This document shows positions 126 to 17,657 of a stretch of 64,000 bases of DNA, piece by piece (position 1 is the first letter of the stretch; the number at the start of each line of letters is the position of its first letter). A model generated the notes under the pieces. That model worked only from the letters and a program-made list of their open reading frames with translations. It was not told where the DNA came from and made no database searches. A program made the translations under genes and the position numbers. Location: positions 62,001-126,000 of the forward strand of contig JAKYXN010000002.1 of the NCBI GenBank assembly GCA_022538095.1. Direction: 5' to 3'. The stretch is from Puniceicoccaceae bacterium K14. GTDB lineage: Bacteria > Verrucomicrobiota > Verrucomicrobiia > Opitutales > Opitutaceae.

Positions 126-2456
126 TTACACGGGCGAGGGGAGCTGCTTTATCTCAATTGAGCCACCATTTGGGTAAGTTTTTTTAGAACCGTCGATGAG
201 GGTTATAGTCGTAGGGATTCCGATTGGAGATTCTACGTTTATCTTAAAACCACTTGTTGGATTTCGAGTCCATGAAACTGAAATTGTGCCATGTGGGGAA
301 GGAATTTGGCCATTGGCTGATTCGGTAGAGGAGTACTTTGGAGCTATCCCTATCTCTTTCCAGCCAGCTGAAACTGGGTAGACACCGAGAACGGTTCTGA
401 GAAATTCTATGACGATCCAACTGCTCCAGGCGTGGCAGTCGCTTCGAGTGTTGATTTCATTTTCTGGCCAAGTGGTGAACCCGTCTTCAAGAAGTTTGTA
501 CCAAGGGGCCAAGACGTCAGAAAAGAATCTCTCATAATTATCTAGCTTTAGAAGTGCTTGGGCTAGGTAGAATCTGTGAAAGAGAGAAACTTTGGCAAGG
601 TCGGGATCGTCGAGGAGTCGATTCCGCAAAAGAGCTTTTTGTTCGTCGTTCGCTGCGCCGGCGAGGAGCGCTACGATTTGAGTGTGCTGTGAGAATTGGT
701 CATCGTCTCTCGTAGGACCTTCCATGAAGTATCCGCGATCGGCTGACCAAGATTTTTGCTGGAGCGTTTCGACAAGGTCCTTTCGCAGGAGGTCCCATTG
801 AAGTGACTCGTTTGGTCGTTTAGCGGCTTCGAATAGTTTTGATGCAGTCTCTAAGGCGATGGCGTAGAGAGCCGTCATGTAAGTGGATCCGGTCCCTGCA
901 TCTACTGCTGGCGGTACTCCCCTTGTCCATTTACGCATCCAATCTATCCAAGGCCAACCTGACATGGTGCCGACAAAGCCACTCGAGGCAATGCGGTCTC
1001 GGAAATATGAAAGGACGAAATTGGTTGCGGTGAGATGTTCGTTGATGAAATCGATTTCCGCTTCTCCGTAGTGATTCCAATAGTCGCCAAGCATTAGTAT
1101 CCAGTGGAGTGAGAAGGCTGGCATTTCTTGTCGCCGTATCGATGGCTCACGGCTTGATATCAGGCCATTTGATGAGAGGGAGCGACTGAATAGGGCAATG
1201 CATCGTTTGCCGAGCTGGCCATTTCCAGAGAGCCAGTAGCTGGCGAGAGCCTGAATGCGGGTGTCGGCTGTGTAGTTGAGTTGCTCGTAGTAAGGGCAAT
1301 CTTCATACGTTTCGTGAGCGCATAGTTCGAGAGTACGAAGGCTGTTGTCCCAGAGCTCTTCTATATTGTCGGCTGCACAGTCAAAATTAGCTGTGAATGT
1401 TTGGGAGAAAGTGGTGTAACGATGGGCAGCGGACTTGAGAGTTACAGGAGTGTCTCCTGCTTCGATAATGATTTTAACGAAACTGAAAGGCCGCCAGTGG
1501 AAGGGTTCAAAGTAGTACTGATCGCCGGGTAGGATAATCGTATCACGATAGCCTTCTGGAGTGAGCTCGGAAAAGTCGCCGCGTGGGCGTCCCTTTTTCC
1601 ATTCTCCAGATTTTGTTTTTCTGAGTGCTTCGGCGTATACGATATGTACCGTTCGACCAGCCCCACCTTCGAATTCGAATTCAAGATAGCTGGTAACTAG
1701 TGATCCTGGATTGAGCCAAATTTCACCAAACTGGCCGGCATCGACAGTCCATGGTAAGTTACGGGGTTGTCTATTTTCTAGAATCTGATGAAAACTGCGT
1801 GGCGATTCTACGAGCGGTAGAATGTCTGCGGGGAAAAGGCAGTGAACGGGTTTAACTCCAAATTCGTCTTGTATCGGTGGCTTACCGAGGGGAACGGCCT
1901 GATGCCAATTTGCGTCATCGAACGATATGCTTTGCCAATTTCTAGGAGTTTTTCGGCCATCTATATAATCGGTGTATCCAAGCCATTCCACGGCTAGGTC
2001 AAACGGATCATGGATGTTGGGTGATACGGAAATGTCGTGATAGATTTTCCAGTTTCCAGGAGTATCCAAAATATCGTGCTCAAATCCTTGAATATAGAGA
2101 CCGGGTTCTTGAGTGTATACTTCGGATTCCGGTCCATGTTTGCCATGCCATCTAACTTCAGCGGCAAGTGTGTTTATTCCTTTCTGAAGTAAGGGGGCGA
2201 GTTCGTAGGTCTCGGCAAAGTAGTGTTCTGCAGTTCCTTTTAGAGGGCCCCTTCCAATGAGTTTTCCATTTAGCCAAAGTCGATAGCGTGTGTCAGCGCT
2301 AACGAAAATTCGAAAAGACTCTGGGATCGAGGATACTTCGAATGTTCTGCGGTAGAGGCAGGTGGACATTTCTCTGGGAGAAGTGTCATCGATCCAACTG
2401 AAATGCGCAGATGGTCTAGGTAAATTGGATTCTATTATGGCAGCTGATTTCTGCAT
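126..2456 (-). CDS. GH78-like alpha-L-rhamnosidase
   Basis: Predicted glycoside hydrolase of 776 residues that would remove terminal alpha-L-rhamnose. Residues about 30-125 form a jelly-roll module (W-L-N-G-K near 61 resembles the lectin-like N-terminal domain of these enzymes). The (alpha/alpha)6 barrel starts near 355, and the segment at 384-400 (E-D-C-P-Y-Y-E-Q then T-A-D-T-R) is the signature of bacterial GH78-type rhamnosidases. A C-terminal beta module follows (about 690-776). There is no signal peptide, so it probably acts in the cytoplasm on imported oligosaccharides. It lies 34 bp downstream of the acetylesterase gene on the same strand, so the two are likely one operon. Rhamnose is a minor component of some fucoidans and the main sugar of ulvan, so the exact substrate is open. 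The family is fairly sure; the specificity is inferred. Confidence 0.8.
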   Translation of the reverse strand: MQKSAAIIESNLPRPSAHFSWIDDTSPREMSTCLYRRTFEVSSIPESFRIFVSADTRYRLWLNGKLIGRGPLKGTAEHYFAETYELAPLLQKGINTLAAEVRWHGKHGPESEVYTQEPGLYIQGFEHDILDTPGNWKIYHDISVSPNIHDPFDLAVEWLGYTDYIDGRKTPRNWQSISFDDANWHQAVPLGKPPIQDEFGVKPVHCLFPADILPLVESPRSFHQILENRQPRNLPWTVDAGQFGEIWLNPGSLVTSYLEFEFEGGAGRTVHIVYAEALRKTKSGEWKKGRPRGDFSELTPEGYRDTIILPGDQYYFEPFHWRPFSFVKIIIEAGDTPVTLKSAAHRYTTFSQTFTANFDCAADNIEELWDNSLRTLELCAHETYEDCPYYEQLNYTADTRIQALASYWLSGNGQLGKRCIALFSRSLSSNGLISSREPSIRRQEMPAFSLHWILMLGDYWNHYGEAEIDFINEHLTATNFVLSYFRDRIASSGFVGTMSGWPWIDWMRKWTRGVPPAVDAGTGSTYMTALYAIALETASKLFEAAKRPNESLQWDLLRKDLVETLQQKSWSADRGYFMEGPTRDDDQFSQHTQIVALLAGAANDEQKALLRNRLLDDPDLAKVSLFHRFYLAQALLKLDNYERFFSDVLAPWYKLLEDGFTTWPENEINTRSDCHAWSSWIVIEFLRTVLGVYPVSAGWKEIGIAPKYSSTESANGQIPSPHGTISVSWTRNPTSGFKINVESPIGIPTTITLIDGSKKTYPNGGSIEIKQLPSPV

Positions 2457-2490: not shown

Positions 2491-4503
2491 TTAGTGGTGG
2501 AAATCTACTTCAGTTATGCTGTTCCAAAGGTTGCCGGTGTTTCCATAGAAAGTGACTACAATGTACTGTATTTTATCGTTCGATACTGGAAAGCGTTGTT
2601 CATCCGATGTTTTGCCTGAGTTGAGCCCGAAAAATGATTCTGTCCAATTTTTGCCATCGAGGGAGTGCTCAATTTTTATAACTGATTGTCTCTTGTCGCC
2701 ATTGTAGAAGCTAAGGCCGATTTCTTTGCAAGTGCGCGGATTATTGGTTTTGGCTACCAGAATAACACCGTTTCCTTCAGCAGACCATCTGGTTTCTGGA
2801 TCGTCGTCGACGAGATTGGGTGCGGAACTATCTGGATGGTACCTAGATACTGCTAAAGACATTTTTCCAGATTTTACCCATTCGACTTTGCTAAGTAGCT
2901 CCTCGAAAGAGCTGACATTGTGGTAGCTTACCGTATCGGAGGATCGGCGACCAGCGGTGGAGAGTCTGCGGTCGTCTGTGCGGAATGGCGACGCGGGTAG
3001 ACCAGAAGCATTGTACAGTGGAGCCTGGGGGTTATTTGCCCACGCATAGCGCACGTGAGTTGGGTTCGAAACTGATGGTGAGTAAAGAATCACTTGATCA
3101 TCTTCGAGTTTGGCGTCGGCCCAATGAAAAGGGCCTTTATCGCTAGCTATGGCAAAGGCTTTGTCTGCGGGTTCTCGAAGTTCTAGACCGTCTTTTGTAT
3201 TTTCGAATTCGAGCACAAGATTTCCTTCGATACTTGTAAGCTTCTTGAGTGCAGGTCCTTCTATGTCTGAATATTGGATACCGTAGCATTGGGCGAGTGC
3301 GTGGAGTGCGAGGCGTTTCCCAACGTCGTGTTTGTTGCGAGGATGAATGTCGTCTGCTTCGCCAATGTCGATAGTGACAGCTTGTCCGGTGTTTGGTAAG
3401 GATAGCGCCATAGATTGGGCTTCGCGAAGTTCTGCCCATTGACTGCTTTGCGGTGTATCCAAAAATTTTCTAAAATTTGCTAGTTGGACGAATAGGAAAG
3501 GTAGTTTAGGTTGTTGCCATCTGTCTCGCCACGCTTCGATCATGAGTGGAAAGAGAGCTTGGTATTCGACTGCACGGCTAGCGTTACTCTCGCCCTGGTA
3601 CCAAATGACTCCTTTAATGGGGCGATCTATGATCGGGTGGATCATTGCATTGTAGAGTGCCGCGGTGCGATTTGGATTTTGCCAGTTGCGCGAGTTAAAC
3701 TCGTTGGGAAAATTGGGATTGATGTTATCCGCACTGGCTAGGAGTTGATCGACTTTCTCGATGGTGTCTTTTGCGAAGCCAGTTTCATTTTCGGAGGAAG
3801 AGAAATTGATTTTGTTTATGGGATCGGCTTTGAGCAAGTAGTGATATTGCGGATCATTCTTGTAGATTTCGATCGGCGTCCAAGGTTGTATTTGAGTGCC
3901 TCCCCAGGTTGCGTCGACGAGACCAATGGGAACTCCTGTGTGGCTGGTGAGTTCTTTTCCGAAATAATAGCCGACTGCGGAGAAGTCCACGGTTGATCCG
4001 GGCTCGCAGCGTTTCCATTCGCCTGAGACGAGTGCCTCTAATGGTTCAGCGGAATCGAGATTCTCGATAGTGAAGAGGCGTAGGTTGGGATTGTGGGATC
4101 TATTGATTTCGGCGGGACCATCGTCGGTATTCTTTAGAATCCATTCCATATTCGATTGTCCAGAGCAGAGCCAAACATCGCCGATTAGGATATCCGTGAG
4201 CGTAGTTGTGCCAGATGAGTCTGATACCGCTAAGGTGTATGGCCCGCCAGCTGGAAGGGACTTGAATTCGAGTGTGAATGAGCCGTCCTGGGTTGGTTTT
4301 ACTTCGCTCTTGTGGGTGGCGTGTACCGAGCGAAGTTCGGCTTCTAGAGTTTCGCCTGTTGTACTGAATCCCGTGATTTGGATAGGTTGCTCTCTCTGGA
4401 TGACCATGTGGTCTCCGAAGAATCTTGAGAGTTGGGGCTGGGCTGAAGAAAAACTTGTTACAGCTAGGACAGTGAGAAATATTATGGAGATTCTGTTTCG
4501 CAT
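2491..4503 (-). CDS. Sialate O-acetylesterase-type SGNH esterase with C-terminal discoidin-like domain
   Basis: Exported carbohydrate esterase of 670 residues, predicted to remove O-acetyl groups from glycans. Signal peptide 1-21 (cleavage near S-S-A-Q). SASA-family landmarks are present: G-Q-S-N-M with the nucleophile Ser117, the G-V-I-W-Y-Q-G-E-S-N block, and D-I-H-P-R-N-K near residue 390 carrying the catalytic Asp/His. Residues about 555-670 form an extra beta domain (D-P-E-T-R-W-S near its start, E-H-S-L-D-G-K-N-W in the middle) typical of F5/8-type-C/CBM32-like carbohydrate-binding modules. It is the first gene of a pair with the rhamnosidase and is divergent from TonB receptor 1 across a 566-bp promoter region. 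The name of the family does not mean sialic acid is the substrate; here an acetylated algal glycan is more likely. Confidence 0.88.
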   Translation of the reverse strand: MRNRISIIFLTVLAVTSFSSAQPQLSRFFGDHMVIQREQPIQITGFSTTGETLEAELRSVHATHKSEVKPTQDGSFTLEFKSLPAGGPYTLAVSDSSGTTTLTDILIGDVWLCSGQSNMEWILKNTDDGPAEINRSHNPNLRLFTIENLDSAEPLEALVSGEWKRCEPGSTVDFSAVGYYFGKELTSHTGVPIGLVDATWGGTQIQPWTPIEIYKNDPQYHYLLKADPINKINFSSSENETGFAKDTIEKVDQLLASADNINPNFPNEFNSRNWQNPNRTAALYNAMIHPIIDRPIKGVIWYQGESNASRAVEYQALFPLMIEAWRDRWQQPKLPFLFVQLANFRKFLDTPQSSQWAELREAQSMALSLPNTGQAVTIDIGEADDIHPRNKHDVGKRLALHALAQCYGIQYSDIEGPALKKLTSIEGNLVLEFENTKDGLELREPADKAFAIASDKGPFHWADAKLEDDQVILYSPSVSNPTHVRYAWANNPQAPLYNASGLPASPFRTDDRRLSTAGRRSSDTVSYHNVSSFEELLSKVEWVKSGKMSLAVSRYHPDSSAPNLVDDDPETRWSAEGNGVILVAKTNNPRTCKEIGLSFYNGDKRQSVIKIEHSLDGKNWTESFFGLNSGKTSDEQRFPVSNDKIQYIVVTFYGNTGNLWNSITEVDFHH

Positions 4504-5069
4504 TGTTAAAATGTTTAGGCCATGTCGCTTGGGTGTAATAGACGACGAGATTAGCAGTTTATCCCGTCTAGTATAAAGCGGCTGAAGGAATTGCTAGTAG
4601 TTTTAAGGAGGATGCTCAGGAAAGATGGATTTATCGGCACTAAGTGTATACTTCTACTCTAGTCTCGAGATTCGTGGATTCGTTTCAATTTCCTGAAAAA
4701 CATATGGGTGCTGGTTGAGTTCGGAAGTTTTAGCTTAAGCTTCGTGTTAGTGGCAGGTTTGTTGTCTAAGTTTTGTAGTTCAGTATTAGAAAAATAAATA
4801 CGATGAATTGGGGGATTTTCAGGGTACGAGTTTGGATTTATTGGGAATGATGCACTTTTTCTCTTAATTTGGAAATTGAACGGTTTCCCGCTATTTCTTG
4901 GCGTTTTTTACCAATTATAGGTAGTTTAGTTAACGGGAGAAATTTCGGGTTTAGTTGTTTCGAGAGGAGAGATACGCGAGAGCTTGAGTCTCGCTAATTC
5001 CTCAAGAGTTGTTGGTTTCTATTCTGGCCAATGAGTCTCGGAGGTATTTCAACCCTAAACTCTACCCGA
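4504..5069. other. Divergent intergenic region between acetylesterase and TonB receptor 1
   Basis: 566 bp with no convincing gene. It must hold the promoters of both flanking genes. Two features stand out: an operator-like GTTAACGGGAGAAA at 4929-4942, and a hairpin GCGAGA-(7 nt)-TCTCGC at 4976-4994 in the probable leader of the receptor. The left half (4504-4900) shows nothing recognisable. Confidence 0.5.
4929..4942 (+). promoter_or_regulatory. Degenerate LacI-type operator candidate upstream of TonB receptor 1
   Basis: GTTAACGGGAGAAA matches the module's CTTTACGGGTTAAG consensus at 9 of 14 positions and keeps the ACGGG core. It lies about 130 bp before the receptor start. It is the weakest member of the set and is separated from the other sites, so it may be chance. 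Confidence 0.25.
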
Positions 5070-8000
5070 ATGACTTATAATACTGCAAAATTAAGATACA
5101 CTGCGAGTTTATCTCTCGCACTCGGCATTGGCTCTTTTGCCGTGGCTCAAGATGAACCCTCTGAACAAAATGACATTTTCGAATTGTCGCCATTTGAAGT
5201 AAGCGCTGAAGATGATAGTGGATACGTCGCTACGAACACCTTAGCTGGAAGTCGGCTCAATACCGCATTGCGCGACACTCCTGCGTCAATTTCTGTAATG
5301 ACAAAGGAGTTCCTTAATGATATCGCGGCCAACGATGTAAACGATGCGATCCGCTATGGACTCAATGCTGGAAATGATATCGGCGCTGGAGATGGTGGTG
5401 CGGGTGCTTCTACCGGAAATGATCTTGTCGGGGATGACTTCAACATTCAGATACGTGGCTATCGCGATGTGGCAGTGACGCGTGACTATTTCCCTACGTT
5501 GTTGTCGACTGATATGTTCAATTCCGACAGGCTTGAAGTTGCTCGCGGTCCTAATTCCCTGATTTTTGGAGTAGGAGGTCCAGGTGGTATCGTTAATACG
5601 TCTTATAAATCAGCAATATTGAATGAAACCTCTACGGAGGTTGGCATTGAATTAGGAAGCTGGAATAAGAACCGCTATACTTTGGATGCGAATGTACCAT
5701 TGATTACAGATAAATTGGCATTGAGGTTGAACCTTTTACATCAGGAGGCAGAGGGCTGGAAGGACTTTGCAATGGATGATCAGGATCGGCAGGCTTTGGC
5801 ACTTACTTATCAAGCGACGGAAAACACTAAGATTAAAGTGCATGCGGAATTCGGAGAGCTTGTGCAAAATAGGGTTCGTCCTTGGAACCCGGTAAACGGA
5901 ATAGAGGTTTGGCAACTAAATGGTAGCTATTTTGTTCCTTATGGAACTCCAGAATCGCCTTGGGAGGCTGATGATGGGAATTACTCGCAGGTTAGGCAAG
6001 CTTCTGGTGGGAGCCCGGCTAATGGGTTGGAAGCAGATCTTGGAGCAGGTCTTACGTTCGAGCGTCGTACGGCTCACTTGGGGACGCCAGTCGTATATTT
6101 GACAGATGGTCCATTGGCGAATAAATTCATAAATGTGGGAGCTCGCAGCGAAGGGAAACGCTATTACAGAACATCGTTTTCAAATGGTGTTCCAGGCTTC
6201 AATACACCGACTTTTATGGATGATGAAACGCTTGTGCCTCGGACTGCGAATCCGACAGGATCAGGAGCTAAGACCATGAGAGATTACACGCAGCTTAATG
6301 CTTCTATTGATCAACGTATTGGGCAGAATTTGAACCTCAACCTGACTGTTCAGAGCACCGACATCGACCTTCGCCAAAATAAACCTCTAGGCTTTGGCAA
6401 TATAGAATTTATCTATGATGTTACTACGACGCTTCCGACATTTAATTCGGATGGAACATACAATGCGACCGAAGGGGGTCCGGATGTTGATGGGCAAGGA
6501 ACAGGAGCCCTAAACTTCGATCAGGTGATTACAAATCCGTATGTGGGAGCGAATATTATTTCCTCGTATCGTCCTCAGTATGACTTGGTCAATCAAAAGC
6601 AGGATGATATTAGATTGGCTGCGAGCTATGATTTGGATCTCGATGGAGCAGGTAAGCATACCTTGATGGGCTTTGTGCAAAAGTCTACAACTGGGTATGA
6701 GAGTGTTAATTATCGCGAAAGTAACGTTTCACCAGATCGACCTGTTGTATCTGCTTGGGATCATTGGAATAGTAGCAACTACGCGGGTCGTTCGTCTCAC
6801 GTTGATTTCTTTGCCTCTGACGAATCTCTTCGCGGTGTTCCAGATCCTTGGTCTAATCCGTTGCAAAATAGTATCTTGTATGGTGGCGATACTGACAGTC
6901 CTGCAGCCTTTGAGGCAGGGTGGTTGGCGTTCGGTGGGAACAAGAGCGAAACTGAAATTGATTCAATGGCCCTTGCCATTCAAAGTGAGTTTTTTAATCG
7001 CAGTTTGATTACAACTGCGGGTGTGCGTCGCGACGAGGTGTCCATTGAAAATTCAACAGTGATCAGAGATGACCAGGGTCTTTGGGCGTCTTTTGCTGAC
7101 GCGGAAGAGGCTCAGTTAGATGAGGGTGATACCTATTCGCTCGGATTTGTCTATCACGTTCCTCAGTTGGAGTGGCTGACAGTTTATGGAAATAAATCTA
7201 CAAATTTCCAACCACAAGATGGGGATCAGGAGTTTGAAGACGAAGACATTCGAATCAATCGTGAGATTGGCGCGTTAACTGGCACAGGCATCGATTACGG
7301 ATTTAAGTTCCGCTTCTTCGATGACAAAGTTCATGTTTCATTAGGAAGATACAAAGTAGACCAGGAGAATGCGTCTACTGGCTTTAATGGAAATGTGACT
7401 GGCTATATAAATGATATTTGGACCACTATCCAGAATGGAGGGCCTGATGAACCTACTGATGGCCCGTTGACGGATGCTCTTAACCCTGATGGGCATCATG
7501 TTGGTGGATCGGATACACGCGATCAAGTTTCTGAGGGATGGGAGTTTGAAATGACAGCTAACCTTAGTGAAAACTGGCGCCTTTCCTTAAATGCGAGTAA
7601 GTCTGATAATGAAGTATCTAACTTGGCTTCCAAGATTAGTGCATACAGAAGTAAGCATATAGATGAATGGGAACAGTGGCGTGATGTTGAATACAATACA
7701 GGAGGCGATGCTGGTTTTCTTGGAGATAACACAGTAGGTGATCTGATTGATGGCCTTGATGGTTTGATCGATTTTATCAAAGCTGGAGAAGGTGTATCCG
7801 AAACGAATGTACGTCCAGTTAACGCGAATTTGTTTACCGCGTATACTTTCCATGAAGGAGGTTTCAAAGGTCTAACATTTGGCGGGGGTATTAATTACCG
7901 TGGCGACCAAATTCTTGGAGTAGACCCTGCGACTGTTGATAACCCAGTCAGCACGACAATTAAGGGTGGAGATTATTATTTGGTGAATGCTTTAATTTCA

Positions 8001-8180
8001 TACGAATTCACCGTTAAAGAAACTGATATTAGGCTTCAGCTTAACGTAGATAATTTGTTACAGAATGATGATAAGCAGGTTCTGGCATCGAACTACGATC
8101 AAGCAACGAACACGCTCACACCATTTTATTATTACTTGGAGCCACGTAGATATACTTTTAGTGCGAATCTTTCTTTTTAG
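5070..8180 (+). CDS. TonB-dependent outer-membrane receptor 1
   Basis: Outer-membrane beta-barrel that imports oligosaccharides or other large substrates using the TonB-ExbBD energy system. From the Met at 5070 it is 1036 residues, with a clear signal peptide (A-S-L-S-L-A-L-G-I-G core, cleavage near A-V-A-Q). The mature N-terminus has the E-L-S-P-F-E-V motif at 38-44 followed by D-S-G-Y, a hallmark of Opitutales-type receptors. The plug domain follows (R-D-T-P-A-S-I-S-V, L-E-V-A-R-G-P near 155-165), then a long barrel ending in aromatic Phe (S-A-N-L-S-F). An upstream ATG at 5031 would add 13 residues and spoil the signal peptide, so 5070 is preferred. No SusD-like partner is adjacent. It is long for the family, with large extracellular loops. 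Substrate not determinable from sequence. Confidence 0.92.
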   Translation: MTYNTAKLRYTASLSLALGIGSFAVAQDEPSEQNDIFELSPFEVSAEDDSGYVATNTLAGSRLNTALRDTPASISVMTKEFLNDIAANDVNDAIRYGLNAGNDIGAGDGGAGASTGNDLVGDDFNIQIRGYRDVAVTRDYFPTLLSTDMFNSDRLEVARGPNSLIFGVGGPGGIVNTSYKSAILNETSTEVGIELGSWNKNRYTLDANVPLITDKLALRLNLLHQEAEGWKDFAMDDQDRQALALTYQATENTKIKVHAEFGELVQNRVRPWNPVNGIEVWQLNGSYFVPYGTPESPWEADDGNYSQVRQASGGSPANGLEADLGAGLTFERRTAHLGTPVVYLTDGPLANKFINVGARSEGKRYYRTSFSNGVPGFNTPTFMDDETLVPRTANPTGSGAKTMRDYTQLNASIDQRIGQNLNLNLTVQSTDIDLRQNKPLGFGNIEFIYDVTTTLPTFNSDGTYNATEGGPDVDGQGTGALNFDQVITNPYVGANIISSYRPQYDLVNQKQDDIRLAASYDLDLDGAGKHTLMGFVQKSTTGYESVNYRESNVSPDRPVVSAWDHWNSSNYAGRSSHVDFFASDESLRGVPDPWSNPLQNSILYGGDTDSPAAFEAGWLAFGGNKSETEIDSMALAIQSEFFNRSLITTAGVRRDEVSIENSTVIRDDQGLWASFADAEEAQLDEGDTYSLGFVYHVPQLEWLTVYGNKSTNFQPQDGDQEFEDEDIRINREIGALTGTGIDYGFKFRFFDDKVHVSLGRYKVDQENASTGFNGNVTGYINDIWTTIQNGGPDEPTDGPLTDALNPDGHHVGGSDTRDQVSEGWEFEMTANLSENWRLSLNASKSDNEVSNLASKISAYRSKHIDEWEQWRDVEYNTGGDAGFLGDNTVGDLIDGLDGLIDFIKAGEGVSETNVRPVNANLFTAYTFHEGGFKGLTFGGGINYRGDQILGVDPATVDNPVSTTIKGGDYYLVNALISYEFTVKETDIRLQLNVDNLLQNDDKQVLASNYDQATNTLTPFYYYLEPRRYTFSANLSF

Positions 8181-9644: not shown

Positions 9645-9658
9645 TTTTACGGGACAAG
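9645..9658 (+). promoter_or_regulatory. Operator-like site S1 at the LacI 1 leader
   Basis: TTTTACGGGACAAG, 11 of 14 matches to CTTTACGGGTTAAG. It lies 42 bp before the preferred ATG of lacI 1, a position suited to autorepression. Confidence 0.5.
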
Positions 9659-9709
9659 TAAGTTCACCTAGAATCTAGATAAAGGTAAGCTTTCTAAGTA
9701 ATAAAGTTA

Positions 9710-9723
9710 TTTATCCCGTAAAG
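9710..9723 (-). promoter_or_regulatory. Operator-like site S2 upstream of LacI 1
   Basis: Reads CTTTACGGGATAAA on the minus strand, 12 of 14 matches to the consensus. Its centre is 65 bp from S1, a spacing that would allow cooperative binding or looping. Confidence 0.6.
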
Positions 9724-9844
9724 TGGGTGTGTCGTGTTTCCGACGTCTGGATTGTTTAGATCCTTTGGTTTCGGCTTATGAATCTAGGCTGATTCTAACC
9801 GAAAGGCTGGTGTCACATTTCCGCTGAAGTGAATCGTGATTAAA

Positions 9845-11167
9845 TTAGCCCTCATCAGAGAGTCGGGTGATTTTGCCTTTTCGTTCGGACCAGGCGAAGT
9901 AGTGAATGTAAAAAATTCCTAAGATACCGGTTAGGATAATCCAGTGATAGGCCGCGAAATAATTATATTCGCCCTCAGGTAGGTTGAACAGCTTTTGCGA
10001 AGAGAACTTTATCCACAATCCCATTACATTAGTGTTTATGAAACTAGAGGTGGCGAAGGCAAGGCCCATGGCGCAGCCGAGAGTGCCGAGCCTTTTACGA
10101 GGTACGTAGTCGAATATAAGAGGAACGCAAGCGACCGCCATGAAACTCCCGACGGTAGACTTAAGAAGGCCGATTCCCAATACGGCTGTGATGGGCGGGC
10201 GTCCACTTACGAAAAACTCGAAATAGGTGTAGAAAAATATTTTGGTGATGACCACGCCGTAGAGTCCTATCCTAAGTAATTTCATTCGATCGAAACGATC
10301 CGAAATATATCCCGCGATCGGGACGAGGAGTACGGTAAAAATCATGCTGGCCGTGAGAAGGTAGCCGTATTCGGTTTTCTCATATCCCCATTGCTCGGTT
10401 ATGAGGAAGGGTTCGAATTGATACATTCCCTGCCACAAGGTTTGAATTGAAAGAGCCAACCCCATTAGACGAAGAATAGTTGGCTTAGTAATTTCGACGA
10501 TGAACCGCTGTGTAAGAAGCTTTCCTAAGGGTGGCCGGTCGATGTTCTCCGGTTTTTCCTCTCGGATAAGAAAGAGAATGATGAATCCTGCCGCTCCGAG
10601 AATACATGCATTTATCCAATACATCGCATGTTCGCCTGAAAATGACATTCCGAAGAGAGAATACTCTGCGTCGAAGTGGCCGATGAGGAATGCCATCGCG
10701 AGGGCTCCAGCACCGCTCTTATACCAGTGGGTTATCGAGCCTGAGCGTCCTCTCTGGTCTGGAGGAATAATATCCATCGTGAATGGTTCGTAGGATCCGG
10801 CGAAGTCGGAGACGAATTGGTAGAGAACGATAAGAACGATAGTTAGCCAACCTACGGTACTGAGGGGAAGAAAGATGCTCAGAATGGCGGCGCCGAGAAA
10901 GCTGACGATTAGGAAGGGACGGCGTCGGCCAAGGGGCGTCCAAATATAGTCGCTAATAAAAGCGACGAGAGAGCCAACCGTCAGGCTAAACGCGTAGTTA
11001 GTACTAAGAACTAGTCCGATGAGAGCGGGGTCGTCGAAAAATTTTCTCAGAGTGAATGCCATCCCGGTGTTCGTGATCGCGTCTCTGACGCTAATCGCGA
11101 ACCAGGGCATGAGTGCGATGACCGCCCAGGACCAAGGAATTCGTGATTGTTGAGTTGTGATTCGCAT
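9845..11167 (-). CDS. MFS sugar transporter (GPH/SLC45-like)
   Basis: Inner-membrane secondary transporter of 440 residues with about 12 hydrophobic segments. The cytoplasmic loop between helices 2 and 3 carries the MFS motif A variant S-D-Y-I-W-T-P-L-G-R-R-R-P-F, which resembles GPH/SLC45-type disaccharide:proton symporters; a second D-R-F-D-R-M-K loop occurs midway. It is the second gene of an operon, 11 bp after the esterase gene, under the exact-consensus operator at 12193. The pairing with a cytoplasmic esterase suggests uptake of acetylated mono- or oligosaccharides that are deacetylated inside the cell. Substrate and coupling ion are inferred. Confidence 0.85.
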   Translation of the reverse strand: MRITTQQSRIPWSWAVIALMPWFAISVRDAITNTGMAFTLRKFFDDPALIGLVLSTNYAFSLTVGSLVAFISDYIWTPLGRRRPFLIVSFLGAAILSIFLPLSTVGWLTIVLIVLYQFVSDFAGSYEPFTMDIIPPDQRGRSGSITHWYKSGAGALAMAFLIGHFDAEYSLFGMSFSGEHAMYWINACILGAAGFIILFLIREEKPENIDRPPLGKLLTQRFIVEITKPTILRLMGLALSIQTLWQGMYQFEPFLITEQWGYEKTEYGYLLTASMIFTVLLVPIAGYISDRFDRMKLLRIGLYGVVITKIFFYTYFEFFVSGRPPITAVLGIGLLKSTVGSFMAVACVPLIFDYVPRKRLGTLGCAMGLAFATSSFINTNVMGLWIKFSSQKLFNLPEGEYNYFAAYHWIILTGILGIFYIHYFAWSERKGKITRLSDEG

Positions 11168-11178
11168 TTTCTGAGGTG

Positions 11179-12081
11179 TTAGGCGCTTGGGTTGTTTGGC
11201 AATTCTTGGATCCAGTCAACTAAGAGTTCGGGCCAACGAGAGAGTCTGCCTTTATCTCGGGCGAGTGCAAAGCCGTGTCCGCCCTTCGGGTACAAATGTA
11301 TCTCAACGTCAATGTTCTTTTCCTTAAGGGCCTTGTAATACGAGAGGCTATTGCTTGGGGCGACGGTTTGATCGTCAGTTGCGTGAATGAGAAAGCAGGG
11401 AGGTGTTTCTGACGTGACGTTTTGGTTGGCTGAATACCGGCTACGCATCGCAGCACTTTGGGATTCTCCTAGCAGACAATGCAATGAACTTTGAGTAGCA
11501 GGCGCATTGCATAGATTGATGATTGGGTAGAGGAGAGCTTGAAAGTCTGGCCGAGAACTATATTGATTGATAGGGTCCTGAGGATTGGTTTTTCCCGAAG
11601 TAAACTGGGTGGCGAGGGTAGCGGCGAGGTGTCCGCCGGCAGAGAAACCGAGGACCCCAATCAGGTGCTGGTCGATTTTCCATTCGTTTGCGTGGTGGCG
11701 TATCAGTCTGAGCGCCCGCTCGGCGTCTAACATTGGAGTGAGATGTGGTTGAGCGCAGGAATCAGGATGAGGAAGACGGTGTTTTAGAACGACTGCGGCT
11801 ATGCCTTTTGCGTTCAGATACCCGGCAACATCTGTTCCTTCCCAATGGTATGCGAGGCATTGATAGCCGCCACCGGGAATGATGAGCACGGCCGGAGTCG
11901 GCTTTGCCGGAGAGGCGGGGAGGCGAACTTCAATCGTAGGTGTTTGGACGTTCTTGATTATTTCGCGATCTTCAAATGCATCGACGTATTCAGATCGTTG
12001 CGATGGAATTTGATTGGGTGGGGTTTCATCCCAGAGAGGTATAATAAGGGGAGCTCCTTGAGAGGGTAGTGGGGAGGACAT
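11179..12081 (-). CDS. Alpha/beta-hydrolase, acetyl-xylan-esterase-like, cytoplasmic
   Basis: Serine esterase of 300 residues from the BD-FAE/acetylesterase-like alpha/beta-hydrolase group. The oxyanion-hole motif P-G-G-G-Y (69-73) and the nucleophile elbow G-F-S-A-G-G with Ser147 are clear. The Asp in H-A-T-D-D-Q and the His in K-G-G-H-G-F complete the triad. No signal peptide, so it should act in the cytoplasm, unlike the exported SASA esterases of this locus. It is the first gene of an operon with the MFS transporter. The 413-bp upstream region holds two operator-like sites. Expected role: removing acetyl groups from imported sugars; the true acyl substrate is not known. Confidence 0.85.
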   Translation of the reverse strand: MSSPLPSQGAPLIIPLWDETPPNQIPSQRSEYVDAFEDREIIKNVQTPTIEVRLPASPAKPTPAVLIIPGGGYQCLAYHWEGTDVAGYLNAKGIAAVVLKHRLPHPDSCAQPHLTPMLDAERALRLIRHHANEWKIDQHLIGVLGFSAGGHLAATLATQFTSGKTNPQDPINQYSSRPDFQALLYPIINLCNAPATQSSLHCLLGESQSAAMRSRYSANQNVTSETPPCFLIHATDDQTVAPSNSLSYYKALKEKNIDVEIHLYPKGGHGFALARDKGRLSRWPELLVDWIQELPNNPSA

Positions 12082-12192
12082 TATTGTTATTATGCGAGGT
12101 GATGAATACTAGATGAAGGTGTTTCGAATTCCGCTAGGCTTGTATCGGGTTTCCTTCATGCACATGGCAAGAGAAGGTGGCGAGAACGCATA

Positions 12193-12206
12193 CTTAACCC
12201 GTAAAG
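12193..12206 (-). promoter_or_regulatory. Operator site S3, exact consensus, before the esterase-MFS operon
   Basis: Reads CTTTACGGGTTAAG on the minus strand, an imperfect palindrome (CTTnACnnGTnAAG) typical of LacI-family operators. It lies 112 bp upstream of the esterase start. Confidence 0.7.
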
Positions 12207-12282
12207 AGATGGGTGGGTGCTTTTGAATGAGTTATTGGGTAATGGCCAGCCGAATAGAGTAGTGTGTTTTTTGGAGCGAGTC

Positions 12283-12296
12283 GCTTAGGGGTTAAG
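12283..12296 (+). promoter_or_regulatory. Operator-like site S4, degenerate
   Basis: GCTTAGGGGTTAAG matches the consensus at 11 of 14 positions; the left arm is shifted by one base (CTTA...TAAG). Its centre is 90 bp from S3 and could be an auxiliary operator. Confidence 0.4.
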
Positions 12297-12439
12297 TATC
12301 CAGAAATATTTTGTGCTCTAGGTTCATCTTCATTCACTTGAAACCCAATTTTGGTCACTTCGGAAATTTTTCAGATGTCGAACTGATTCGCTTCATCGAT
12401 GAGGCTTTCAAGCGCTACTAAATAGTAGTAGCAGATACT

Positions 12440-12469
12440 AAAAAGATGCGATGTTTGATCGCATCTTTT
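12440..12469 (-). terminator. Rho-independent terminator of the 2-hydroxyacid dehydrogenase gene
   Basis: Perfect 12-bp stem AAAAGATGCGAT / ATCGCATCTTTT with a 5-nt loop, ending in five T on the minus strand, 26 bp beyond the stop codon. Confidence 0.85.
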
Positions 12470-12494
12470 GGGTGCTCCTTTGATGGAGGTTTAG

Positions 12495-13511
12495 CTATCC
12501 TTGGATAGGTCTAAATTGCTCTGCTATTTTGTCAACGTATCTCAAATTAGAATACTCCGTGCGCCCAGCATTGTGTGGCGTGTGCACGACGTTGTGGCGT
12601 CCCAAGAGTGGGTCGTCGAGTGGGACTGGCTCGATGTCGAAGACGTCTGCTGCGAGAGAGATTTCATCCGCAAGCACTCGTCTGCGGATGGCTTCCATGT
12701 CGCAAATGTTGGCTCGAGTGACGAGGACTACGAGACAGCCTTTGGGCAGAGCGTCGATTATTTCAGCGGTGATGAGGCCTTCTGTGGCGTCGGTTAGCGG
12801 TACCATGGGAACGAAAATGTCTGCGTCTAGAGGGAGCCGCTCGAGAAAGTGTTCTTGTTCGGTACCGGCGAGAGTAAAGCAGGGTTCGCTGGCAAAGGGA
12901 TCGTAGGCGCGAACGCTTGCTCCGAGCGTGCTTACAAAGTTAGCGTAGAGGGCAGCGATATTGCCTGCTCCTACAATGCGGATGCGTTTGCCACGAACTG
13001 TACCGTTGGTAAAACGAATATCGTCCCCGAATTGGATGCCTCTTTGGCGGGGCTGAATATTTTCTGGATCTTGATCGTAGTTCCAGGAGTCCAAGCTGGT
13101 GAGGATATCGTGATGAAGTTGAGGAATGCGGCGGAGTCCGCAAAGAGTAAGGGCGAGTCCAAACTCGGCGACAGACTGGGACCAGAAGCTTTCCGAAGGA
13201 TGACAGTGAATGCTGACTCGTGGTTCAGCAGCTTTGAGTTCGGCAGCAATGTGAGCTTTGTTATGAGCAAGCTCTTCCAGGGCCGGTAACTGTTCTATTT
13301 GTTCGAGAGTGATGTATACGCCGAGAAGAACGATACGCCGAACGTGAGCGGCGTCGCCCTCGAGGATTTCTAAGACGGTGCGTTTTTCGCCTTTTGGAAG
13401 ACGAATGAAGCGCGTAGGACCTTGCGTTTCCCAGAGCTCGTGCATGTGGTCGGCGGCAAAGGGCCAGTTGTTATCGAATTCGTAGGCGACTAAAATATAG
13501 TTGGGGATCAT
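12495..13511 (-). CDS. D-isomer-specific 2-hydroxyacid dehydrogenase family protein
   Basis: NAD(P)-dependent dehydrogenase of 338 residues that would interconvert a 2-keto acid and a D-2-hydroxy acid, or act on a related sugar acid. The Rossmann motif is G-A-G-N-I-A at 181-186, with the usual third Gly replaced by Ala, followed by the acidic residue in A-Y-D-P-F (202-206). The catalytic trio is in place: Arg266 (T-R-A-N), Glu294 (F-D-I-E-P) and His313 (T-P-H-N-A-G). No signal peptide. It is divergent from the ThuA-like gene; the 172-bp region between them holds two operator-like sites, tying it to the LacI 1 regulon. A catabolic role in handling a sugar-derived acid is inferred; the substrate is unknown. 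Confidence 0.85.
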   Translation of the reverse strand: MIPNYILVAYEFDNNWPFAADHMHELWETQGPTRFIRLPKGEKRTVLEILEGDAAHVRRIVLLGVYITLEQIEQLPALEELAHNKAHIAAELKAAEPRVSIHCHPSESFWSQSVAEFGLALTLCGLRRIPQLHHDILTSLDSWNYDQDPENIQPRQRGIQFGDDIRFTNGTVRGKRIRIVGAGNIAALYANFVSTLGASVRAYDPFASEPCFTLAGTEQEHFLERLPLDADIFVPMVPLTDATEGLITAEIIDALPKGCLVVLVTRANICDMEAIRRRVLADEISLAADVFDIEPVPLDDPLLGRHNVVHTPHNAGRTEYSNLRYVDKIAEQFRPIQG

Positions 13512-13564
13512 GATTTTATGGTTTCAGTACCGGTTAGAGGCGGAGGCTAAAATGAACTTTTCAG

Positions 13565-13578
13565 CTTATGCGGTAAAG
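13565..13578 (-). promoter_or_regulatory. Operator-like site S5
   Basis: Reads CTTTACCGCATAAG on the minus strand, 11 of 14 matches with both arms intact. It lies between the divergent dehydrogenase and ThuA-like genes. Confidence 0.5.
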
Positions 13579-13622
13579 TTGGCTGGAATTCGGGGATAGG
13601 GTGAGGAGATGCTTATGATTGA

Positions 13623-13636
13623 TTTGACGGGTTAAG
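13623..13636 (+). promoter_or_regulatory. Operator-like site S6
   Basis: TTTGACGGGTTAAG, 12 of 14 matches, 48 bp before the ThuA-like start and 58 bp centre-to-centre from S5. Confidence 0.55.
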
Positions 13637-13683
13637 CAAAATCGAGCTTTAGATATCCGTGGAGTGTTGAATATTGCTACATA

Positions 13684-14346
13684 ATGGAATCTGCTAAGAA
13701 AATTCTTTTTCTAGGTGACAATCACTACAAATCTTTTGGTTCAAAAGCCCTTGCTCAATGCCTTGAGGATGAGCTTGACTTGACCTACGTTGAGGACAGC
13801 TATGGACAATTCTTAGAGGAAGAAGATCTTTCAAAATTCGATGTTTTCATGATTTCCGCAATCGGGGACACGCCTGGTTCGCCTCATGCATCCGAGAAAG
13901 CGGGGGAGCGTTTGAAGGAACGCCTTAAAGCGGGCGCCTCGTTAATGCTTTTTCACGGTGGCAGTGCAGCCTTTTGGCGTTGGGAATGGTGGCGAAAAAT
14001 CGTGGGCTTGCGTTGGGTGCGTCCGAATGACCCAGTGGGGGTGGCTGCCTCCACGCATCCGGTGGTCCCGTATGCCTTGGAGTGTGTGGCTTCGGAGCAT
14101 CCTCTTTCTGAGGTGCTTCAAAGAATGGATACTCCTCGTGATGAATTGTATATCGAACTGGAGCAGACGACTGATATATATCCCCTAATGGAGTCTTCTT
14201 ACGACGGAAAAACATACGTGATGGCTTACGAGTCGCAGGCTGATTGGGGAGGGAAGATTCTTGGGTATTTGCCAGGACATGACGTGGAGGTTGCCTCGCA
14301 CTCGATCACAGTCGCCAATGTGAAGGCGATGTTGGAGTATTGCTAA
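13684..14346 (+). CDS. ThuA-like (trehalose-utilisation) domain protein
   Basis: Small cytoplasmic protein of 220 residues with a class-I-glutamine-amidotransferase-like fold. The ThuA family marks are L-F-H-G-G-S at 89-94 with W-R-W-E-W-W after it, H-P-V-V at 125, D-E-L-Y at 153-156, and G-H-D near the end (198-200). In rhizobia ThuA works with ThuB, a Gfo/Idh/MocA oxidoreductase, in 3-keto-disaccharide metabolism; a Gfo/Idh/MocA gene lies 3.4 kb away here. Operator-like sites S5 and S6 precede it. It converges with the ADP-ribosylglycohydrolase-like gene, 12 bp apart. A truncated copy of its last third occurs at 19366-19596. Family membership is fairly firm; a role in keto-sugar handling is inferred. 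Confidence 0.8.
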   Translation: MESAKKILFLGDNHYKSFGSKALAQCLEDELDLTYVEDSYGQFLEEEDLSKFDVFMISAIGDTPGSPHASEKAGERLKERLKAGASLMLFHGGSAAFWRWEWWRKIVGLRWVRPNDPVGVAASTHPVVPYALECVASEHPLSEVLQRMDTPRDELYIELEQTTDIYPLMESSYDGKTYVMAYESQADWGGKILGYLPGHDVEVASHSITVANVKAMLEYC

Positions 14347-14358
14347 TCGATCTAGGGA

Positions 14359-15594
14359 TTAAAAATCTGTTTGAATAGTGTAAATCCATTCACCGTTCTG
14401 CTCGGTTTTGCTTCCTTCGTTGTTAAGAATCGCTCGTTCGGAAACGGCTAGAATGCGGTCGACAATGTCGCTGATACGATAGTGATTGGGGAGCCCATCT
14501 CGGGAGTAGTTAATGTAGGTGTTGTTGAAGGGCGTATCCCATTCTCTTCTACTAGGCAGTTCTTTGGTGAGCGAGCCAGGGATGGCTTGGGCTCCGTGTA
14601 TGATTCCCATAAGGCCCCCGCATGTGGCTGCTTGATTGTCGCAGTCGTATCCGGCGGACGTGGCAATGGCGATCGTTTTAACAAAGTCTCCTTCTCCGTA
14701 AGAGATGGCGAGAATTGAGCAAAGGCCATTAATGATTGATCCGCTTGTAGGATAAGGGACTTCGAAGTCGTTTACGTTTTTGAAGTAAGCTCGGTGTAGC
14801 AATCGGCGGACTTTCCGCCAGCTTTTGCCTTCGGATTTCCACTGTTTGATTTTTTCCATTCCTTCTCGAAATGGGCTGGTTTCTGGAAGTTTAGCGGCAG
14901 CGATTTCGAGGAGTTTGGTGGTATCTTTCTCAAAGAAGGCGGCGCTGTAGAGCACACCGTATACAATGTCTGGATGCGTGGCCCAGTCATCGGTGATTAT
15001 CTTAGCGTTCCATTCGCAGCGCTCTGCGGCGGCGTCTGTCATTCCTGGATAGAAGGTTCCCCAGATTTCGGTCATGAGTTGAGATGAGATACGGTACCAA
15101 TATTCGTTGTGCTCTTTGCTACCTGTTTGCGGGGGGAGAAGACCTTCTCCCATAAGCTCTCTCGTTTTGGAAGCAGCAGACCAAACGAAACGATTGACGT
15201 GGGCTTTCCACATTTCTGTTATCTCAGAATAGTCGAGATCCAGCCCGCATTTTTCGACAGCGTGTAGGGTGACGAGTTCGATGTCGGTATCGTCGTCGCT
15301 CCAGGCTCCTCCAAGAGCATCCGCCATTATGTCGGTATACGCTCTGCGGTCGTTGGTGTTCATTCTCAAGTTTTTCGCTTTCGCGTCATGATAATGATAA
15401 TACTTATCGATCAAGATGGGAATGGCTGTTTCTTCGTATTTGTTTTCGAATGGAAATCCCATGTAATTGCCTACGAGCTGTCCGATCCAGTAACCGTGGA
15501 TTTTGTCTTTGAGCTCGTCTTGCGAGATGCGACGCTCAGTTTGGGCAAAGCAAGCGGGTAGGACTAGCAAAAGGGCGAAGCCGCGAATATTCAT
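14359..15594 (-). CDS. Exported ADP-ribosylglycohydrolase (DraG/ARH)-fold protein
   Basis: Protein of 411 residues with an N-terminal signal peptide (cleavage near A-C-F-A-Q, 14-18), so it is probably periplasmic. The ARH fold is indicated by the N-terminal G-Y-W-I-G-Q-L-V-G-N-Y-M-G block (34-46), the metal-binding S-D-D-D-T-D cluster (99-104) and the C-terminal G-Y-D-C-D-N-Q-A-A (315-323), a variant of the family's G-G-D-T-D-x-N-A-A with the two metal-binding Asp (317, 319) kept. Classical members remove ADP-ribose from proteins, which makes little sense for an exported protein in a glycan locus; such homologues may instead hydrolyse an N- or O-glycoside. It is divergent from symporter 1 with operator S7 between them. 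The fold is likely, the reaction unknown. Confidence 0.8.
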   Translation of the reverse strand: MNIRGFALLLVLPACFAQTERRISQDELKDKIHGYWIGQLVGNYMGFPFENKYEETAIPILIDKYYHYHDAKAKNLRMNTNDRRAYTDIMADALGGAWSDDDTDIELVTLHAVEKCGLDLDYSEITEMWKAHVNRFVWSAASKTRELMGEGLLPPQTGSKEHNEYWYRISSQLMTEIWGTFYPGMTDAAAERCEWNAKIITDDWATHPDIVYGVLYSAAFFEKDTTKLLEIAAAKLPETSPFREGMEKIKQWKSEGKSWRKVRRLLHRAYFKNVNDFEVPYPTSGSIINGLCSILAISYGEGDFVKTIAIATSAGYDCDNQAATCGGLMGIIHGAQAIPGSLTKELPSRREWDTPFNNTYINYSRDGLPNHYRISDIVDRILAVSERAILNNEGSKTEQNGEWIYTIQTDF

Positions 15595-15728
15595 ACAAAT
15601 TTTTCTGGGTGAACTTTTTTGTCGATTGTTTGTTAGAGAGAACGTGGCGGAGGGCGATTGATCGATCTCAGCATGGGTTTGTCACGTTAAGTAAGGGGCA
15701 GGCGGCATTTGGATTGACGTGTTATAGC

Positions 15729-15742
15729 CTTTACGGGTTAAC
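15729..15742 (+). promoter_or_regulatory. Operator site S7 between ADP-ribosylglycohydrolase-like gene and symporter 1
   Basis: CTTTACGGGTTAAC, 13 of 14 matches to the consensus, 135 bp from one start and 83 bp from the other. It could control both divergent genes. A weaker half-site CACGTTAAG lies at 15683-15691. Confidence 0.65.
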
Positions 15743-15824: not shown

Positions 15825-17657
15825 ATGCATTGGATTGATTTTGTTATCCTGGGAGCTGTCCTGGTTGTTTTGCTAATCATTGGTTTTGTTCTGTCTCGTC
15901 GAGCGAGTAAGGATACGGCCGAGTACATGGTTGGGGGGCGAAAAATGCCTTGGTGGCTAATCGGATTTTCCGATGCCGCAGTGGGATTGAATACCAGTAG
16001 CATGCTGCAAGATTCGCGGAAGGTACGTCAGGATGGTGTGACTGGGATGATGTGGACTTGGAGTTTCGCCTTGAAGACTTGCATAGCCGGAGTGTTTTTC
16101 GATCGGCTGTGGCGTCGGGCTCGTTTCACGACTCAGATGGAATTCTACAAAGCGCGTTACGATGGCTGGCAGGCCTCGTTTACTCGGATCTACGATACGG
16201 TGGTCTTCGGCGGTTTTGTGACTTCGATTTGGGCGGCGATTGGTTTAGTGGGAATTAAAAAGGTAGCAAGCGTCGTGTTGGGTTTGCCGGCATCTGTCGA
16301 ATTGTTCGGAGCGAATGTTTCGACTGAATCCTTGGTCGTCATTGGTGTTGTTTTAATCGCCTTGGGCTACTCGGCGGCGGCTGGTGCCAGGGGGGTCTAC
16401 TGGACAGATTTGGTGGAGTTTTTCATCGCGATCGTTCCCTTGTATTTCTTGTTGATTATTGTTTACACGAAGATCGGCGGTAGCGTCGGTCTTCGTGAGA
16501 ATTTGGAAACGCTTGGGCCGGAGAAAGAAAAGTTCTTAAGTTTTCTGCAGCCGTTTAGCATCATATACATCTACATGTTTCTTATAAATCCGCTTCTGGA
16601 TCATGGTGGGTTTAATCCTGGGATGCAACGGATCCTGAGTTTGAAGGGCGAGCGGGAAGTTCTCTACTCGCTTGTATTCAAAACGTTAGTCGGGTTTATT
16701 ATCAGAGGGTTGCCCTTTGTCGCAATTGGGCTGATTGGCATGTTCTTAGTAGACGATTCCTTTTTGATGGCGAATTTCGAAACCTTGCGGACTCCAGAAG
16801 GCGATGCTATCCCGGATTGGGAACGCGTGTTTCCGTACTTGGTTGAGCAATACTTACCAATTGGGCTGACAGGCTTGATGGCAGCAGCGTTCCTATGCGC
16901 GTTTATGTCGTCGTTCGATAGCAATATTCACCTTACCGGATCGGTTGTAGTCAACGATTTGTATCGTCCGTTTTTAGTTAAGAACAAAAGCGAAACTCAT
17001 TATGTTTTGGCGACGAAGGTTGTCATGACCTTAGCTTCACTTGGTTCGATTGCGATTGGAATATTCGCAGATGATATTCTGTATTTAGGTTACCTTGCGT
17101 TGACGATCTCTCTGGGAGGAGGGTGGTTTAAGCTCTTGAGAATTATCTGGTGGCGAGCCAATGGAGCGGCCGATGTCGCGTCACAGATATTTTCGCTGGT
17201 GGTCTTTGCGGTTGTGCTGTCTCCTCTGGGAAAAGATATAGTATTGAGTCTAATGTCTTGGATGGATCTAGAAGGTAACGATGCGTTTTATGTGACTCGA
17301 ACTATGGCGGCTGGCATTGTCAGTACGGTGGTGGCGTTTTTGATTATGATGCTTACGAAGCCGGAACCGATGGACAAACTGTGTAGTTTCTATAAAAGAA
17401 TGCGTCCTTTCGGTTTTTGGGGACCGGTGAGGGAAAAATTGGGCGAGGATGTGCAAGATCCAGATTCGATTTGGATTCAGACAGCACTTACCGCTGCGAT
17501 TTTATCGATCGTTTGGGGAGGGTGGTTTGGCTCCATGTGTTTGCTTTTGGCTTACTGGTGGGGCGCTGTTCTTTCGGGAGTTTTTATGGTATTGGGAATT
17601 TGGGGTACACGATCCTATGTGCGCAAATTGTACCCTGATGGGGAAGTGGACGGATAG
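15825..17657 (+). CDS. Sodium:solute symporter 1 (SSS family)
   Basis: Inner-membrane transporter of 610 residues with about 14 hydrophobic segments beginning at residue 6. The family pattern is seen in the N-terminal Y-M-V-G-G-R-K-M-P-W-W region (34-44), G-A-R-G-V-Y-W-T-D in the middle, and L-C-A-F-M-S-S-F-D-S-N-I-H, which corresponds to the sodium-site helix (helix 8) of SSS proteins. It starts downstream of operator S7 and belongs to the LacI 1 module, so it probably imports a sugar or sugar acid released by the exported enzymes. It lacks an obvious Shine-Dalgarno sequence. The substrate cannot be read from the sequence. Confidence 0.9.
   Translation: MHWIDFVILGAVLVVLLIIGFVLSRRASKDTAEYMVGGRKMPWWLIGFSDAAVGLNTSSMLQDSRKVRQDGVTGMMWTWSFALKTCIAGVFFDRLWRRARFTTQMEFYKARYDGWQASFTRIYDTVVFGGFVTSIWAAIGLVGIKKVASVVLGLPASVELFGANVSTESLVVIGVVLIALGYSAAAGARGVYWTDLVEFFIAIVPLYFLLIIVYTKIGGSVGLRENLETLGPEKEKFLSFLQPFSIIYIYMFLINPLLDHGGFNPGMQRILSLKGEREVLYSLVFKTLVGFIIRGLPFVAIGLIGMFLVDDSFLMANFETLRTPEGDAIPDWERVFPYLVEQYLPIGLTGLMAAAFLCAFMSSFDSNIHLTGSVVVNDLYRPFLVKNKSETHYVLATKVVMTLASLGSIAIGIFADDILYLGYLALTISLGGGWFKLLRIIWWRANGAADVASQIFSLVVFAVVLSPLGKDIVLSLMSWMDLEGNDAFYVTRTMAAGIVSTVVAFLIMMLTKPEPMDKLCSFYKRMRPFGFWGPVREKLGEDVQDPDSIWIQTALTAAILSIVWGGWFGSMCLLLAYWWGAVLSGVFMVLGIWGTRSYVRKLYPDGEVDG

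Follow-up and report, generated by a model that had tools for sequence, protein, structure and literature searches.

Operators of LacI-family regulators are mostly even palindromes with a CG pair at the centre, found in 1173 of 1303 LacI motifs; in this genomic reconstruction autoregulation applies to 72% of the regulators, and the distance from a site to the downstream start is mostly 30-140 bp (PMC4052901). Verrucomicrobia are not mentioned in the text of that paper, and no study of operators in the LacI group described here was found in the literature. The window, the whole 64-kb stretch of DNA analyzed, features a 14-bp repeat, CTTTACGGGWTAAG, in the promoters of a 6-kb gene block edged by a LacI-family gene. 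At a probability of about 0.88, CTTTACGGGWTAAG is the predicted operator of the LacI-family protein encoded at 8482-9603, and the block part of a local autoregulated glycan regulon. As in the local autoregulated LacI sugar regulons already described (PMC4052901), the regulator adjoins its targets and has a site in its own promoter, the sites are palindrome-like and reside 30-140 bp upstream, and the targets include sugar transport and hydrolase genes. The locus differs from them in the GG, rather than CG, centre, in the 14-bp core, and in ThuA-like and ADP-ribosylglycohydrolase-fold targets. Autoregulation and site position fit LacI norms, the centre does not; the finding is well supported as a local LacI regulon of the ordinary kind, its operator being unusual in one feature.

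Genes and sites are listed in Table 1. The esterase and MFS genes form a single leftward unit, served by the site at 12193. The dehydrogenase and ThuA genes diverge, with one site facing each (13565, 13623), as do the ADP-ribosylglycohydrolase-like and symporter genes, with the site at 15729 between them. Both sites attributed by the earlier note to the LacI gene itself, 9645 and 9710, lie in its promoter and are among the six best in the window; 9645 is upstream of the LacI frame when translation starts at the ATG at 9603, and would be inside it only with a TTG start at 9657. On the far side of the LacI gene, the rhamnosidase-like hydrolase gene sits downstream of the SASA esterase gene.

Table 1. 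Genes and sites of the LacI locus (window positions; site scores by the relatives' matrix, see text)
Feature	Position	Strand	Remarks
Alpha-L-rhamnosidase-like hydrolase, possible regulon member	126..2456	-	Pfam Bac_rhamnosid domains; 50% homolog in G208 locus
SASA-type carbohydrate esterase, possible regulon member	2491..4503	-	Pfam SASA
Candidate weak operator CTAGACGGGATAAA	4558..4571	-	upstream of SASA esterase; score 11.4
Candidate weak operator GTTAACGGGAGAAA	4929..4942	+	upstream of TonB receptor; score 11.5
TonB-dependent receptor, possible regulon member	5031..8180	+	Pfam Plug
LacI-family regulator, 373 aa	8482..9603	-	ATG start 9603; Pfam LacI, Peripla_BP_1; proposed binder
Predicted operator TTTTACGGGACAAG	9645..9658	+	LacI promoter; score 16.7, 0.22 expected by chance in 64 kb
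Predicted operator CTTTACGGGATAAA	9710..9723	-	LacI promoter; score 20.2, 0.02 expected
MFS carrier	9845..11167	-	Pfam MFS_1; apparent operon with esterase; 59% ortholog adjoins LacI in G208
BD-FAE-type esterase	11179..12081	-	nearest NCBIfam model pectin acetylesterase PaeX, below cut-off; 52% homolog in G208 locus
Predicted operator CTTTACGGGTTAAG	12193..12206	-	esterase-MFS promoter; score 22.2, highest in window
Reported site GCTTAGGGGTTAAG	12283..12296	+	score 8.8, ~23 such positions expected by chance
D-2-hydroxyacid dehydrogenase family protein	12495..13511	-	Pfam 2-Hacid_dh_C
Predicted operator CTTTACCGCATAAG	13565..13578	-	faces dehydrogenase; score 13.9, 1.0 expected in 64 kb
Predicted operator TTTGACGGGTTAAG	13623..13636	+	faces ThuA; score 17.3
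ThuA-like protein	13684..14346	+	Pfam ThuA
ADP-ribosylglycohydrolase-fold protein	14359..15594	-	Pfam ADP_ribosyl_GH
Predicted operator CTTTACGGGTTAAC	15729..15742	+	ADP-ribosylglycohydrolase-like gene/symporter intergenic region; score 18.0
Sodium:solute symporter	15825..17657	+	Pfam SSF; 71% P. mobilis ortholog with own promoter site

All seven near-matches reported by the earlier note are present, with 0-3 mismatches each. The full 64 kb hold 10 consensus matches, 7 of them within the block; 10 matches were reached in only 2 of 100 shuffled sequences. Because the consensus had been drawn from the sites themselves, discovery was repeated consensus-free, using each 14-mer of the four intergenic regions of the block as a seed, with no motif assumed. 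The best seeds are registers of the CTTTACGGGWTAAG motif; with up to 3 mismatches allowed they retrieved 7 sites (at most 5 over 60 shuffles), and with up to 2 mismatches 6 sites (shuffle maximum 3). A scoring matrix built from 13 sites of two relatives (Pelagicoccus mobilis and G208) was applied to all 64 kb; it depends in part on the window, as the relatives' sites were chosen via the window's consensus, while motif discovery in the relatives' loci is independent. By this matrix positions 12193, 9710, 15729, 13623, 9645 and 13565 rank first to sixth in the window, and are the only ones scoring 13 or more. As had been claimed, sites reside in promoters and not in genes: all six are located in promoters of the block, the genes of which contain no above-background site (best score 12.3, in the MFS gene). 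Intergenic DNA makes up 12.5% of the window. Each of the four block promoter regions has a regional P of 4e-4 or less, and no other intergenic region, among the 22 examined in the window, has a P below 0.03. Chance similarity, inflated by a consensus picked from the same sites, is scarcely credible: three of the seven reported sites do carry 3 mismatches, and the match count of the whole window exceeds the chance mean only about twofold, but motif-free discovery, in the window as in the relatives, and the relatives' matrix take away most of the circularity. The repeated motif in the block's promoters is real; a chance origin is refuted for six sites, though not for 12283. This position, which has GGGTTAAGTAT in common with 12193, scores at background level and is unsupported as a full operator, being at most a degenerate half-site.

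The divergent SASA esterase/TonB receptor promoter includes the two weak candidates at 4558 and 4929, with a regional P of 0.037, uncorrected for the 22 regions examined. The regulon may reach this promoter. The paired sites in the window are spaced by 58-90 bp with no consistent helical phasing, and looping is therefore not claimed. A promoter scan returned no more sites than were found in shuffles, and gave no support for repression via promoter overlap.

Among 252 genomes of the family, LacI orthologs were identified in P. mobilis (72% identity; loci L053, L066 and L067) and in G208 (58%; L064 and L075), the remaining matches listed all being below 39%. A genus-level search found no further member, and the orthologs in the data searched are three in all. 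Motif-free discovery in the intergenic DNA of the two loci yielded CTTTACGGGATAAG in P. mobilis, clearly above shuffles, and CTTCACGGGTTAAG in G208, modestly above shuffles; in both genomes the CTTTACGGGWTAAG motif is the top-ranking word at the locus of the LacI ortholog. The promoter of the LacI gene carries the motif in all three genomes (9645 and 9710 in the window, L067:200 in P. mobilis, L064:10581 in G208), as in local autoregulated LacI regulons. In P. mobilis a site is found also upstream of the symporter ortholog (71%), and in both relatives sites reside upstream of units including a TonB homolog, esterases and glycoside hydrolases. In both relatives the units of the TonB homologs are preceded by good sites, which makes the window's TonB receptor a plausible regulon member; the SASA esterase and rhamnosidase-like hydrolase genes are possible members. 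A rhamnosidase-like hydrolase is found at all three loci. Apart from LacI, transporters, esterases, rhamnosidase-like hydrolases and the TonB receptor, the targets vary among the three species; this variation counts against the proposed regulon, as does the restriction to three orthologs. A 1408-aa protein (L067:3623-7849, L075:15719-19945) has a predicted operator in its promoter in both relatives and no counterpart seen in the window block; in G208 it features FG-GAP, ASPIC/UnbV, DUF6851 and vanadium-chloroperoxidase-like helical domains.

Genomes were scanned by pattern matching, not by matrix. The whole 5.7-Mb genome contains 22 matches at up to 2 mismatches; 4 reside in the 6-kb block, all intergenic, and 13 of the 18 outside fall within long reading frames. 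When at most 1 mismatch from CTTTACGGGWTAAG is allowed, the locus has 8 matches over the three ortholog-bearing genomes, all intergenic, and away from it 5 matches were found in the nine genomes searched, 4 of them coding. Of the six relatives without the ortholog, four have no match at this threshold, one has a coding and one an intergenic match. With a looser pattern, 12 of 12 in-locus matches are intergenic versus 2 of 18 elsewhere (Fisher p about 1e-6), counting as spurious an 82-codon frame which overlaps one in-locus match. The outcome that the earlier note had named as refuting, an equal frequency of sites in coding and promoter DNA, was thus not observed: matches at the locus are intergenic, the others mostly coding. 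Seven loci with other LacI proteins, one adjoining a TonB homolog of 56% identity, contain no above-background site by the relatives' matrix. The sites are limited to the regulator's neighbourhood. A promoter element, such as a sigma-factor box, is very improbable: sites do precede starts by about 50-140 bp, are asymmetric, and in 14 of 20 cases are oriented like a downstream gene, yet this preference is not significant (p=0.12), the site-to-start spacing varies, and the motif, unlike a general sigma box, is confined genome-wide to the LacI locus.

The motif may alternatively be bound by a regulator encoded elsewhere, of AraC or hybrid two-component type for example, the LacI gene being merely a target. 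The asymmetry of the motif would fit this, as would an AraC-family gene close to the P. mobilis locus and, at 34192-38121 in the window, a hybrid two-component regulator that has an AraC-type domain; the alternative is nonetheless unlikely, as no regulator besides LacI was found common to the three loci, the motif is gone from loci lacking the LacI ortholog, and its layout is that of the operator of a sister LacI group (see below). The neighbouring LacI protein, already named as the owner of the motif by the earlier note, is thus favoured: the motif follows its ortholog in three genomes, and is absent at control loci with other LacIs. A second LacI gene in the window (51351-52427) encodes a different recognition helix (SVASVSMAL), and no CTTTACGGG-type site above background is found near it.

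PF00356 (residues 23-66) and PF00532 (residues 107-293) mark the LacI helix-turn-helix and the periplasmic-binding-protein-like domain of the candidate binder. All three orthologs have the same recognition helix, GVTKTTVSLAL, which none of the other LacIs sampled shares. Judging from sequence only, YRPDPAISAIAAQR is a hinge helix with a hydrophobic lever residue, which is Ile instead of the usual Leu; among 30 LacIs sampled, Ile was found in the three orthologs only. The operator reads CTTTAC-GG-GWTAAG, an inverted repeat that is imperfect, as had been claimed, with T at positions 4 and 11; GG is central in most of 20 sites from the three species. It is not the even palindrome with central CG of canonical LacI operators. 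The uncommon GG centre counts against a LacI binder, as does the asymmetry of the site, LacI dimers being symmetric.

Within the same bacterial family, a sister LacI group (loci L068-L074; DKSTVSLAL-type helix) is associated with a palindrome, TTCATCnnGATGAA, of variable centre, in intergenic DNA; TTCATC-nn-GATGAA has 14 matches in 5.6 kb of intergenic DNA, compared with 19 in coding DNA totalling about 93 kb, and TTCATCnnGATGAA is likely the operator of this group. The two groups have in common the LacI fold, a YRPDP hinge and, in their likely operators, the 6-2-6 layout, a central pair other than CG and a WCnnGW core. They differ in the arms (TTCATC versus CTTWAC here), in the neighbouring genes, and in the proteins, which are 35-38% identical. 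The shared layout and core support LacI as the binder. Ile at the hinge lever was rejected as sole cause of the GG centre, since the Leu-bearing sister group also lacks a CG centre. In a third group (HVTTVSLAL-type helix) a motif search of about 4 kb of intergenic DNA remained at shuffle level. The two groups hint that operators read by a LacI clade in the family commonly lack CG at the centre. It is conceivable, if doubtful, that operators of the YRPDP-hinge clade consist of two 6-bp arms, each ending in C, that flank a central pair free to vary (C-NN-G); if true, the hinge helices would have to be seated differently in the minor groove.

The LacI dimer probably occupies four promoter regions, its own and those of the esterase-MFS, dehydrogenase/ThuA and ADP-ribosylglycohydrolase-like/symporter genes, and would most likely repress, rather than activate, them until released by a sugar ligand. 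Judging from family names, esterases and a rhamnosidase-like hydrolase at the loci suggest an acylated, rhamnose-containing glycan; the regulon probably controls uptake and catabolism of such a glycan, and an oligosaccharide or monosaccharide derived from it is probably the effector. The single response proposed by the earlier note for these genes is supported, except for the site at 12283, and may also take in the TonB receptor and the SASA esterase. Elsewhere in the window, the protein encoded at 19924-22044 has no Pfam match and resembles alpha-D-galacturonidase in part (NCBIfam, well below cut-off). Several sulfatases, GH29 and GH95 fucosidases, a GH2 enzyme, a symporter and a hybrid two-component regulator reside in 23935-50081, which has the look of a cluster for the degradation of sulfated fucan and lies outside the LacI regulon.

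For a marine Verrucomicrobia-type host, these data provide a predicted operator and regulon for a LacI protein in a lineage for which literature searches found none. Poorly understood ThuA-like, ADP-ribosylglycohydrolase-fold and 2-hydroxyacid dehydrogenase genes would be tied to one glycan response, and the case allows a test of the tolerance of LacI proteins for a non-CG operator centre.
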